From Rhizophagus irregularis (taxonomy: Eukaryota; Glomeromycota; Glomeromycetes; Glomerales; Glomeraceae), in assembly GCF_026210795.1 (NCBI RefSeq), contig NC_089433.1, forward strand, positions 434,001-498,000: a DNA stretch of 64,000 nucleotides, read 5' to 3'. Positions 2,415 through 49,602 of this stretch are shown here, piece after piece. The first letter of the stretch is position 1. Every line of letters begins with the position of its first letter. The position numbers and the translations under genes are program-made. The notes under the pieces were generated by a model. That model searched no databases. It was given only the letters and a program-made list of their open reading frames with translations, and had not been told where the DNA came from.

Positions 2415-3610
2415 ATGTCTAGTGAAAGGTTCTTGAGACATCAACTCATTTCCTACTTAAGGGAAAAGAAAAATAAGTCGTATCGCAGTTTTCTCCTTCA
2501 TTACAGAAAAGAAATCAGCGAATATTTTTTGCATACCTCAGTAATGTCTTGGAGAGATCACGACAATACATGGTCCCAGTTCTTCTTATTAGAGGCCAAG
2601 AGGTTGTTAAATGAAAACAACTTTGATACATTAGAATATAAGGTGCGTCTTTTTATTTTGCAATGAGAGGGTAACTCCTGGTCGAGTCCAGCGTGTCGTT
2701 GCTCAGGAGAATTACTGTGCTGGGATTGCTGGTAACCACCCCAGCTTGCACTGTACAGGCGTCCTCACGTTGTCGTTGATAAAAGTCTACTAATCTTGGA
2801 TGAGAGATTGGTCATGTACCTTCCTTTATCACTAAATAAATAGCGCATTCTGCTAATATTAGCTTCCTTTTATTAGGTTAGAGTAGAACGATGCAATGAT
2901 GGTCTAAAGAATTACTGGGAGGAAATAATACAAGAGTGTGAGAAGGTAAACAATCTGATTCATAATTTTAAAAACTTTCTTCATTCTTCAGGAATTCTTA
3001 AAGATTTTTTCGTGTGTATTTTATCTGTTAACCAATATCTATTATATCCATAGAAACAAGAACTTATCTCATACGAAAGTGAAAGGGATCGTCTTCTTCA
3101 TTTACTTTCTGAAGTAAATGAAAAAATTAATATAACGAAGGCAGAACTTACCAGATTTTCTAGCTTAGGTAATAATTCTGATTTAATTTCTGATAATGGA
3201 TCAGAAATTCAGTCTGGTATCGGAGGTGATCTGTATGAGGATATTAATGGAGACCCTAGTGGTGATACTGAAATGAACACTGAAGATAGTATTTCCTCAG
3301 ACAACGATTCTTCTAGAAAGAAGAATCGTCGTAATCTTGTTCGAGTTAACTATAATTGCGGTTCTCCACCAAGAAAACGCAGAAAAACTAGGCCTGTAAG
3401 TCTTATAATTATAAATTAATGACAATCTCATTCACAAAGTGATAAAGATTTTTTACTCTAAATATATAGGCCTCACGACGATCAACGCCACGACAGTCAC
3501 CATGTACATCATTACCGTCCACGCCGACAGATCCCTCTCATACAGATTTTCCCGATGATGAGAACCTAAGGTGCACAAATTGCCCCGTTCATTGCCCTAA
3601 TAGCTCTTAG
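2415..3610 (+). CDS. Four-exon gene of unknown function, 259 aa, basic and serine-rich C-terminus
   Basis: Exons 2415-2642, 2877-2945, 3054-3395 and 3470-3610; introns are GT-AG and all junctions are phase 0, giving 76+23+114+46 residues. The ATG at 2415 is the first in frame. Exon 1 encodes an aromatic and basic helical region (ISYLREKKNKSYRSF). Exon 3 starts with a likely coiled coil (KQELISYESERDRLLHLLSE), then an acidic Ser/Asp stretch and a basic patch, PPRKRRKTR, that resembles a nuclear localisation signal. The end holds three Cys (CTNCPVHC). I recognise no domain. A decayed paralogue lies at 42880-44045, and the N-terminal module recurs in front of the bromodomain gene at 47.8 kb, which hints at a chromatin or nuclear role. 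Intron 1 carries a structured RNA. Confidence 0.75.
2643..2876 (+). ncRNA. Structured intronic RNA, copy 1 (intron 1)
   Basis: The 234-nt intron (donor GTGCGT, acceptor TATTAG) can form three hairpins: H1 2675-2680 with 2704-2709; H2 2728-2732 with 2741-2745; H3 2789-2796 with 2805-2812 (8 bp, 8-nt loop TGGATGAG). Compared with the intron at 48032-48263, both partners change together at two pairs of H1 (2676-2708, 2680-2704), two of H2 (2728-2745, 2729-2744) and three of H3 (2789-2812, 2795-2806, 2796-2805). Such covariation is the usual mark of a selected RNA structure. The class is unknown: no H/ACA or C/D box set is convincing. Confidence 0.7.
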
Positions 3611-42879: not shown

Positions 42880-44045
42880 ATGTCTCAAGAACTTTCCAAT
42901 AGATATAGTCAACTCATTTCTTACTTAAGGGAAAAGAAAATTAAGCCATATTACAGTTTTCTACTTCATTATTACAGAAAAAAATCATCAAATATTTATT
43001 ACATATTTCAATAATATCTTGGAGAGATCTTAACAATACCTGATCCAGTTCTTCTTATTAGAGGCTAAGAGGTTGTTAAATAAAAACACCTTTGATACAT
43101 TAGAACATAAGGGCCATTTTTTATTATGCAAAGAGAGGGTAACTCTTAATTGAATAAAGTATGTCATTGTCCAGGAGAATTACTGTGCTGGGTTGTTGGT
43201 AATTATCCCAGTTTGAATTGTACTGGCATCTTCACATTACCATTGATAAAGGTTTACTAATCTTAGATGAAAAATTGGTTATTTACCTTCTTTATCGCTA
43301 AATAAGATAGCACATACTGCTAATATTAACTTCCTTTTATTAGGTTAAAATAGAATGACATAATGATGGTTTGAAGAATTACTGGAAGGAAATAATCTGG
43401 GAGTGTGAGAAGGTAAACAATCTGATTTATAATTTTAAAAAATTTTTTCATTTTTCTAGAATTCTTAAAGATTTTTTTGTGTGTATTTTGTTTGTCAATC
43501 AATTTCTATTATATTTACAGAAACAAAAACTTATATCATAAAAATTGAAAGAGATCTTTTTCTTTGTTTATTCTCTTAAGTAAATGAAAAAATTAATATT
43601 ATAATGAAGGTAGAACTTGCCAGATTTTCTAACATAATGATTTAATTTCTGATAATGGATCAGAAATACAGTCTGATCTCAGAAGTGATTTGTATGAGGA
43701 TTGATATTGATTAAAGCCAAAATGGAGGCCTTAGTGAGGATACTTAAAAAAATACTGCAAATAGCATTTCCTTGAATGATGATTCTTCTAAAAAGAAGAA
43801 GAATCATCATAATCTTAATCAAGTTAATTATAATAGTTGAAGAATTAGGCCTGTAAGTTTTATAATTATAAACTAATAACAAACTTATTCACAAAGTGAC
43901 AAAGATTTTTTACTCTTTGGACATTTAAATATATAGGCTTACAATGATCAATACCACATACATCATCACCATCTATACTAACAGATTTCTTATATACAGA
44001 TTTCCTGATAATAAATTTGCTATAATATACAATTGCCCTTTTTCA
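42880..44045 (+). pseudogene. Decayed paralogue of the gene at 2415
   Basis: Starts MSQELSNRYSQLISYLREKK and follows the same exon order as 2415-3610, but contains stops in exon 1, a lost intron-1 donor (AAG-GGCCAT), frameshifts, and stops in exon 3. Many differences from the intact copy are CG to TG or CA, the pattern of deamination at methylated CpG. The intron-1 RNA structure is partly kept. Confidence 0.85.
43112..43344 (+). ncRNA. Structured intronic RNA remnant, copy 2
   Basis: Aligned with 2643-2876. H2 keeps its middle (TTGGTAATTATCCCAG) with wobble pairs outside. H3 keeps seven of eight pairs around TAGATGAA. H1 keeps five pairs. The host gene is dead and the donor site is lost, so this copy probably decays neutrally. 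Confidence 0.55.
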
Positions 44046-47702: not shown

Positions 47703-49602
47703 ATATATCCAATTTATATTCAGAAAAATATTAATATAAGTATATCTGAAGGCTATTCTGGTCAAGATGGTAAGTCTATTAAAATCTAATAATAATAATC
47801 TGATAAATTTTAATAGCTAACTAATTCCTCATCTTTCTAGCTCTTATCTCTTATATAACAAAAAATAAAATAATATCATATTGTAGATTCTTAAAAAGTT
47901 ACTGTAATATCATTGTTGCTTCAATTACTAATTCTTCATCAACTTTCTCAGATAATTGGAATAATCTTGATAATCTTTGGGCTGGCTGTTTTTTGTGTGA
48001 AGGAAAAGATTTTCCTGACTTAAAGGATAAGGTGCGTTTTTTATTTTGCAATGGAAGAATAACCCCTAAATCGATCATATGCTTGACTTAGGGGAATTAC
48101 TGGATTTGACAACCTTGGTAACCACTCCAAGCTCTCAGTTCAGGTGTCCTGACTTTGTAGTTAATAAAAGTCTGCTAATTCTGGAGGAGGAATTGGCTAT
48201 GTACTTTCTTTTATTACTAAATAAAATCATAATGCACTACTAATGTTTTCTTTCTTATAACAGATAGCAACAGAACGTTTATGTTATGCAAAAATATTGC
48301 AAATATTCTGGAAAGGAATTATTAAGGAGTATAAAAAGAAAAAAAAATCTAGTATCTGCTCTTGCATCTCATTCAGAAAATGTAATTGAAATTCCTACAA
48401 ATGATCATTCTATTTCAGTTAAAGATGATTATTGCAAAATTACTAAGAAAAATGCATCTCATTCAGAAAATGTAATTGAAACTCCTACAAATGATCATTC
48501 CATTTCAGTTAAAGATGATTATTACAAGATTACTAAGAAAAACAATATTATTGACTTTTGTTGTGATATTCTTCAAGAACTTGATGGCAAGTATAATATT
48601 CATCCATTTTATAAATATGATGAAAAAGAAACAGCTATAAAAAATCCAATAGATTTATTTACTATAAATTCAAAATTAGAAAATAATCAATATACAAGTA
48701 TAAAAGAATTTGAAAAAGATATTCGTCTTATATTTTGCAATTGTTATGCATATAATAATATAGAAAGTGATATATATTATTTGGGAAAAGAATTAGAATC
48801 AGTTTTTAACAAAATATGGACTAAAAAAATAATTTCTTATGCTGAACAAAAGGAAAAATTAAAAAGAGTATGAGATATTAGTGATGCTAATTTATCTTCT
48901 GGTAAGTTATAATATTTTAATTACTTATTCTGCATTTGTATTATTAACTCTTTATATATAATTATTTATTAGAACCTGTAACAAAACAAATTCGAATTTT
49001 AGAACAAAACAAAGATAAATTAGTATATAACCAAGTTGTAAATAATGCTTTTCTTATTGCTTCAGCATATGAAAATCTTGTTGCAGGTAATTTGTTACCT
49101 TTTATTGAAATTTTAAAAACATTCCTATCAGCAAGATCAAAAATGTCATTATCTTCTGCAAATGCAGGCAATTGTTGAAAGCCTTTTACCATTAGAATAT
49201 AGTATTCCTGAACTTTCACTTGTAATGGATGGTACAAAATTAAAAGGATTTGGTCATTTTGGATATTCTGATATTTTTGTTCTAAAAGGAATATGAGATA
49301 ATTATGTTAGCTTAGAATTAAAATACATTTCATTAGTTAATTTAATAAAAAATCAAAAAGATAAGTTTAATACAAATGTTCTAGAAAAATTGGATAAAAT
49401 TATTGAAAAAGAAGATGAAAAAGTTTTACTAGGAAGATCATATGCATATTGGTCAAAAGAATATAAGGAAACTAAACAAACAACTATAGGAGAAATATTA
49501 GACAGTGGAGTTAATCAATTAAAATCATATATGAATATTATTTCAAAGGTAAAACAAGTGATTATTTTAGTTCAGGAATATTTGACAAATGGATTAAAAT
49601 AA
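47703..49602 (+). pseudogene. Broken gene: N-terminal module, bromodomain and PD-(D/E)XK-like domain
   Basis: Exon 47841-48031 encodes a module like exon 1 of the 2415 gene (ALISYITKNKIISYCRF). The structured intron follows, then 48264 onward. A one-base shift at an A-run near 48345 leads into the bromodomain ORF (195 codons from 48286). It has a 29-codon tandem duplication (SHSENVIEIPTNDHS), then FYKYDEKETAIKNPIDLFTI, FEKDIRLIFCNCYAYN (the YN pair that binds acetyl-lysine) and GKELESVFNKIW. After an in-frame TGA and an intron (48901-48972) comes a second domain with FGYSDIFVLKG and VSLELKY, resembling the D...ExK core of PD-(D/E)XK nucleases, again with a frameshift and a TGA. TGA stands where Trp would be plausible. 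Confidence 0.7.
48032..48263 (+). ncRNA. Structured intronic RNA, copy 3
   Basis: The 232-nt intron (GTGCGT...AACAG) is at the homologous position to 2643-2876. Stems: 48063-48068 with 48089-48094; 48114-48118 with 48127-48131; 48174-48181 with 48190-48197 (8 bp, loop TGGAGGAG). The stems are intact although several pairs differ from copy 1 on both sides. The intron is at least as conserved as the neighbouring exons. Confidence 0.7.

Follow-up and report, generated by a model that had tools for sequence, protein, structure and literature searches.

Structured introns of Rhizophagus irregularis in which the 5' splice site covaries with bases beside the branch-point-like element

The first intron (2643–2876) of a 259-aa gene starting at position 2415 of the 64,000-nucleotide stretch of Rhizophagus irregularis DNA analysed here (the window) belongs to a set of introns which, judged from the comparison of their sequences, are almost certainly structured RNAs under selection. 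The earlier note on this DNA had left it open whether such an RNA would be a non-coding RNA hosted in the intron or a splicing-control structure. The latter was favoured and the former disfavoured because the 5' splice site covaries with bases beside the branch-point element. The intron is thus regarded as probably an RNA that acts in cis to control the splicing of the intron itself, perhaps in a riboswitch-like manner (with no known ligand), splicing, retention and switching all being inferred in the absence of RNA data.

The intron at 2643–2876 (GTGCGT...TTAG; forward strand, as for all features of the window given below) is in phase 0. The spliced frame is open to its stop over 259 codons, and with the intron retained the frame ends 7 codons in. 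The features of a spliceosomal intron (GT donor, branch-point element and AG acceptor) are present in the sequence, the splicing itself being unobserved. A paralogous structured intron, also starting with GTGCGT, was located at 48032–48263, and a decayed copy (relic) at 43112–43343, with the donor GG instead of GT (it starts GGCCAT) and a stop in the upstream exon. The presence of all three and their alignment from end to end, as previously claimed, were confirmed. Of the 51 base pairs of the structure described below, 46 are formed in the 2643 copy, 47 in the 48032 copy and 40 in the relic. Between the 2643 and 48032 copies nine pairs show compensatory changes on both sides, and all seven compensatory pairs reported before were found among them; in three pairs only one side has changed and the pairing is kept, and seven exist in one copy only. 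No two-sided compensatory changes were observed between the 2643 copy and the relic. The loops TGGATGAG/TGGAGGAG and GGTAACCAC, which had been described as kept, are indeed the same in the 2643 and 48032 copies, but the relic has TAGATGAA and GGTAATTAT. Likewise, the statement that the exons diverged more than the intron holds for the 2643 and 48032 copies (identity of 0.51 in the upstream exon, 0.73 in the intron core and 0.49 in the downstream exon), but not for the 2643 copy and the relic (0.86, 0.78 and 0.78, respectively).

The search for further copies covered the R. irregularis genome (146,748,485 bases in 32 contigs), with no other fungal genome in the comparison. A DNA search with the 2643 intron gave 74 candidates, the best 40 of which were scored and all matched, and the best 40 of 259 candidates were scored in a search with copy L017. 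A total of 131 stretches from the genome was taken for analysis. The first 40 copies comprised three in the window and 37 elsewhere; 39 of them (L022 being excluded) were searched with the model R1 and all matched it, 33 of the 39 having also been used to build the model. In the next 66 stretches, 54 matched R1 at >80 bits and 12 shared little besides the P3 hairpin described below. In all, 93 intron copies (39 + 54) matched the model of the full fold; they are referred to as the main class.

RNAalifold predicted 38 pairs, including 18 with two-sided changes, from 38 full introns. The RIBOSUM-scored consensus comprised P0, Pa (about 14 pairs), P1, P2 and P3 with its outer and inner stem, as well as a further helix between P1 and P2, beginning CUG/CAG. 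In the 2643 copy, Pa (helix 1) closes the 5' domain, which includes P1, P2 and the helix between them; its strands lie at 2660–2672 and 2761–2773, and P1 (helix 2) is formed by 2675–2680 and 2704–2709. The P2 hairpin (helix 4; 2728–2745) has the loop TAACCACC and contains a second donor-like GGTAAC; like Pa, P1 and P3, it is supported by covariation. The P3 hairpin module (helices 5 and 6; 2777–2831) carries the hexaloop GGATGA, which is GGAGGA in most copies, and a conserved internal loop GUCU / AUGUACCUUC. The three hairpins recognised in the earlier note correspond to P1 (its H1), P2 (H2) and P3 (H3); the large helices Pa and P0 had been missed. Many loop and junction bases are invariant across the copies, and the GT-AG borders, the branch-point-like element and the pyrimidine-rich tail are conserved. 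The P2 loop GGUAACC (2731–2737) is partly self-complementary, so that two such RNAs could conceivably make contact through their loops. In three copies (L022, L047 and L082) the P1-P2 unit is, by eye, seemingly tandem-duplicated or the 5' part replaced.

The structure was evaluated by covariation against shuffles, slid structures and a parsimony count on a tree. For 33 copies aligned with MAFFT without regard to structure, 92.9% of cells in the 51 pairs were paired and 27 pairs had two-sided changes; the covariation score was 0.209 in comparison with 0.148 for shuffles (none of 500 reached the observed value), and slid structures gave 5–8 such pairs and scores of at most 0.075. For 54 copies outside the derivation of the structure, with an alignment fitted to the model, 88.5% were paired, 35 of the 51 pairs changed on both sides and the score was 0.293 against 0.169 for shuffles (slid structures: 12–16 pairs, at most 0.098). 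The 78 copies pooled gave 91.8% paired, 36 two-sided pairs and a score of 0.256 against 0.161, with 9–17 pairs for slid structures. Since counts of sequences overstate independence, changes were also reconstructed by parsimony on a tree, which gave 39 compensatory branches over 25 pairs (0–4 branches for slid structures), and on a tree built from the unpaired columns only, which gave 63 over 29 pairs (slid, 0–7). Against the structure stand the pair-breaking branches, 123 on the first tree and 140 on the second, and the weakness of some Pa pairs, the outermost of which fails in 44 of 75 copies and two others in 22 of 71 and 27 of 78. The z-score of the minimum free energy had a median of -2.33 over 71 copies (range from -6.8 to 0.16) and was only -0.64 for the 2643 copy, so the case rests on covariation and not on energy. 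Together with the conservation of the intron above that of the exons, the covariation in the 33, the 54 other and the 78 pooled copies strongly supports the proposal that the intron contains a selected structured RNA. Similarity of this kind could also arise neutrally among paralogues or by gene conversion, with pairing by chance, and recent duplicates do exist, such as L001, which is 97% identical. However, compensatory events were about ten times as frequent as in the slid controls. Moreover, among 700 random pairs of copies the intron core had a median identity of 0.76, the upstream exon 0.55 (0.49 being the shuffled baseline) and the downstream exon 0.59; the core was the more similar part in 686 pairs when compared with the upstream exon and in 670 when compared with the downstream one. 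Both observations contradict the neutral explanation, to which hardly any credence can be given.

Both exon borders could be located for 72 of the 76 introns examined (L053, L075, L086 and L097 were dropped). A lysine codon closes exon 1 in 71 of these 72 copies, and the motif W-(3-4)-[FY][LFM] precedes the intron in 60, in 53 of them in the phase-0 frame. Exon 2 of the main-class copies starts with E[RHY..] in 58 of 72 and contains [FY]W[QKE] in 50. Because these motifs are shared, most copies are assigned to one gene family and one phase-0 intron site; the exon-1 motif is absent from 12 copies, some of which are plainly decayed relatives. The 40 codons upstream are open in 52 copies and interrupted by a stop in 20, which suggests that many of the host genes are probably pseudogenes. 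Retention would bring an in-frame stop in 70 of 71 introns (the relic excluded). No Pfam match was found for the product of the 2415 gene, and in nine other exon pieces the cut-off was passed only by a bromodomain-coding stretch at 48540–48780 (PF00439, E 4.4e-16), downstream of the 48032 intron and shifted in frame relative to the exon that follows this intron. A protein search of viral contigs with exon 1 revealed no relative. In the main-class copy L020, an inserted inverted repeat of 56 bases (L020:682-737), which resembles a small mobile element, separates the outer P3 strand from the branch-point region.

The remaining helix, P0, involves the splice site itself. In the 2643 copy its 5' strand is the 5' splice site GTGCGT (2643–2648) and its 3' strand is GCGCAT (2843–2848), two bases before the branch-point-like TGCTAAT (2851–2857), the branch point being inferred from the motif. 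The helix was evaluated in a set of 76 introns, 38 from the first 40 copies (without L020 and L022) and 38 from the 54 new ones, of which 15 had been excluded because their 5' part was different or uncertain, and L066 because it gave no donor. Removal of the relic and of two introns that did not fit the region pattern reduced the set to 73, in which the first six intron bases were compared with the 34 bases after P3 and CTAAAT. A partner hexamer scoring at least 4.5 of 6 was found in 68 of the 73 introns, with P0 starting at nucleotide 1 and usually ending 0–3 nt before the branch-point-like element. The mean score was 5.39, in comparison with 4.55 for partners taken from introns with another splice site and 3.79 for shuffled regions, and none of 5000 permutations reached the observed sum. 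No excess of pairing was observed for the next two six-base windows (4.12 vs 3.99 and 3.96 vs 4.15). GTGTGT/ACACAC, GTGCGT/ACGCAC, GTGCAT/ATGCAC, GTATGT/GCATAC and GTGAGT/ATTCAC were among the pairs seen. Position +4 of the splice site and its partner changed jointly on seven branches, positions +3 and +5 on one or two each. The median pairing probability of the splice site was 0.988, in comparison with 0.708 in shuffles that kept the splice site, and was higher than these in 65 of 71 introns.

A helix between the two ends of an intron might serve splicing by bringing the ends together, as zipper stems do. According to the part of the source available, such stems are common in yeast introns, being predicted for 32 of 88, and in modelling, those compatible with splicing require a distance of at least 10 nt for their start and at least 20 nt for their end (PMC12350175). 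The ends of the present intron are likewise brought together. However, P0 includes the splice site and as a rule reaches up to the branch-point element, at distances which the yeast modelling excludes. Being inside both limits, P0 argues for masking and not for zipping, an inference drawn from another fungus. In addition, sequence conservation is poor in the zipper stems of yeast, as far as the same source goes (PMC12350175), whereas many bases of the present loops and junctions are invariant. The zipper explanation is considered unlikely, if still a real possibility.

None of the known RNA families that were looked for could be recognised. No Rfam family, including TPP, hammerhead and group I/II introns, matched at gathering level in the window, and in a permissive scan of five loci the best match reached 22 bits against a cut-off of 90. 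No tRNA or tmRNA was found in the window. By simple patterns, 0 of 71 introns contained the TPP core (CUGAGA with an ACCUGA-type element), the C/D snoRNA boxes (RUGAUGA and CUGA), the hammerhead core (CUGANGA and CGAAA) or the H/ACA boxes (hinge ANANNA and ACA near the end, a loose pattern with fixed position ranges). The earlier note had likewise stated that no snoRNA box set or riboswitch core fits. A compact domain with conserved loops could nevertheless be an independent non-coding RNA, freed from the intron after splicing and acting in trans, and this is regarded as quite improbable. In addition to the lack of an Rfam match and of C/D or H/ACA patterns in all 71 introns, such an RNA would leave the covariation of the splice site with the bases adjacent to the branch-point element unexplained, which the favoured reading, control of the intron's own splicing, accounts for.

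The P3 module extends beyond the main class. A 29-base piece of the 3' hairpin was found, with up to three mismatches, at 112 places on many contigs, and its reversed control at none; a looser P3 pattern gave 260 places against 4 in the control. Exact P3 patterns were absent from viral contigs and from a prokaryote collection. At 22 loci P3 was found and the rest of the main-class fold was not, with different contexts and different basal stems. The basal strands of these loci pair better with their own partner than when swapped (7.16 vs 5.28; reached in 0 of 10,000), as do those of 14 further loci (6.46 vs 5.13; 3 of 10,000). Because some loci are near copies of one another (e.g., L084/L088/L116/L125 and L115/L129), these counts overstate independence, and the intron status of the P3-only loci, read by eye, is ambiguous at several. 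At three loci (L085, L106 and L110) P3 seems, by eye, to lie in a first intron right after a very short coding exon, e.g., M-E-E-G-G or M-G-R-G, of other gene families. Tandem arrays of short hairpin-like units often adjoin P3, again by eye (L110, L112, L108, L113, L094 and L122), for example CACCCTCCC..GGGAGTG or GAAGGAGTATTCTCCTGG; alternatively, three GTGCTACACCC...GAAGAAGAGCGTCTGG units lie upstream. Coding of a peptide by P3 (S-G-G-G-I-G-Y-V-P-S in one frame) was rejected as a general explanation because the frame is short, being open for no more than 30 codons upstream in 32 of 37 P3-only loci and in 61 of 68 copies of the main class (median of 5 codons), and because the stem changes are compensatory.

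The spread of P3 over the 112 places and into several other contexts could suggest mobile structured introns, similar to introner-like elements or proliferating stwintrons, whose paired ends would serve their spread. Proliferating introns whose ends are inverted repeats have been described in fungi, and they resemble the present ones in being many similar paired-end introns in one genome, as described in the accessible part of the source (PMC8469720). In contrast to those, which occupy novel sites, the copies described here share, for the most part, a single site in a single gene family. Exon motifs are shared (60, 71 and 58 of 72, as given above) and most copies therefore spread with the gene; the basal stems of P3 also differ between contexts, unlike after recent transposition. 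Mobility as the explanation is thus held to be very unlikely. The definition of an introner-like element as near-identical introns in unrelated genes is not met by the main class, since it is mostly one site of one family, and an introner-like origin is not excluded for the P3 module alone.

A switch-like layout was noticed in one group of P3 loci. A search with the L117 intron gave eight places, two of which were short P3-only matches. At the other six, which are related loci (L108, L113, L117, L121, L130 and L131), the strand after P3 (ACTTAC/ATTTAC) is complementary to the splice site (GTAAGT/GTGAGT), and a second strand, by which P3 is extended, competes with it. The predicted fold with the splice site bound is better by 2.5 kcal/mol in L113, the two folds are equal in L108 (0.1), and the fold with the splice site free is better in L117 (by 3.6), L121 (6.1), L130 (2.9) and L131 (1.0 kcal/mol). 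P3 stays intact in both folds at five of the loci and is broken up in the free fold of L113. Because shuffled tails reach the observed complement in 1–5% of cases at five loci and in 23% in L113, and because the six loci are related, the competing folds are suggestive and not a proof. They belong to the L108/L117 type; in the main class no fold freeing the splice site stood out, in the absence of a systematic search. Of 71 main-class introns, 63 contain GGTAAC close to where P1 begins and 56 contain it in the P2 region; an in-frame stop lies ahead of the first site in 12 of the 63 and ahead of the second in 49 of the 56. This recalls the layout of type III fungal TPP riboswitches, for which two donors with a stop between them and internal introns of 200–400 nt are described in the part of the source available (PMC5882874). 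By analogy only, the internal GGTAAC could be a second donor of this kind, and its bases may equally be conserved for the structure.

The present introns were also compared with known systems. TPP riboswitches are found in a few thiamine genes, and the copy number observed here is far higher; neither the TPP core nor an Rfam match is present, and, apart from the one bromodomain, no Pfam match passed the cut-off for the host exons tested. The likeness to the fungal intron TPP riboswitches (types I–III) lies in a structured intron RNA with strands that pair at or near the 5' splice site, as far as these are covered by the accessible portion of PMC5882874. Conserved intronic structures, presumed to act in cis, are likewise reported for fungal introns of RPS13, lysyl-tRNA synthetase and metacaspase 1B in the available part of PMC8216456; those are single genes across species, whereas here many paralogues within one genome are concerned and a module is shared by intron types. 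The main text of that paper contains no word starting with Rhizophagus, Glomero or Mucoromyc. The nonconventional and intermediate introns of euglenids have ends joined by secondary structure as well, according to what could be consulted of PMC4770533. In contrast to these, the present introns have conserved borders (GT-AG), a conserved pyrimidine-rich tail and a conserved branch-point-like element, and the partner of their splice site lies ahead of this element and not in the last bases. In the literature on Rhizophagus and on fungal structured introns nothing similar was found among the titles and beginnings of abstracts listed, a survey outside of which most subscription papers and bioRxiv remained.

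If the intron controls its own splicing, the following course may be inferred. In the folded state, with the 5' splice site paired in P0 to bases that abut the branch-point element, U1 and U2 could not load. The intron would then be retained, and its in-frame stop would lead to a truncated or destroyed message. The conserved loops and junctions of P3 might be bound by a metabolite or by a protein such as a GGA-binding factor of the SR type; any such binder is hypothetical. By shifting the fold, the binder would determine how much spliced mRNA is made, and the occurrence of P3 in other introns would put several gene families under one signal. That these introns represent a new eukaryotic riboswitch class or a trans-regulated splicing switch, with P3 as a sensor fitted to several intron types and acting through the hiding of the 5' splice site, can be put forward only tentatively.

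The 5' splice site co-evolves with its own mask one base at a time, and splice-site masking can therefore be tested directly. TPP was described in 2018, in the part of the source available, as the only riboswitch class also present in fungi, plants and algae (PMC5882874), and about ninety introns with a switch-like layout are for this reason a rare lead to another class. If the tentative proposal were true, many lineage-specific genes of one symbiotic fungus would be run as one regulon. The introns would also provide a way into the study of gene regulation in arbuscular mycorrhizal fungi.
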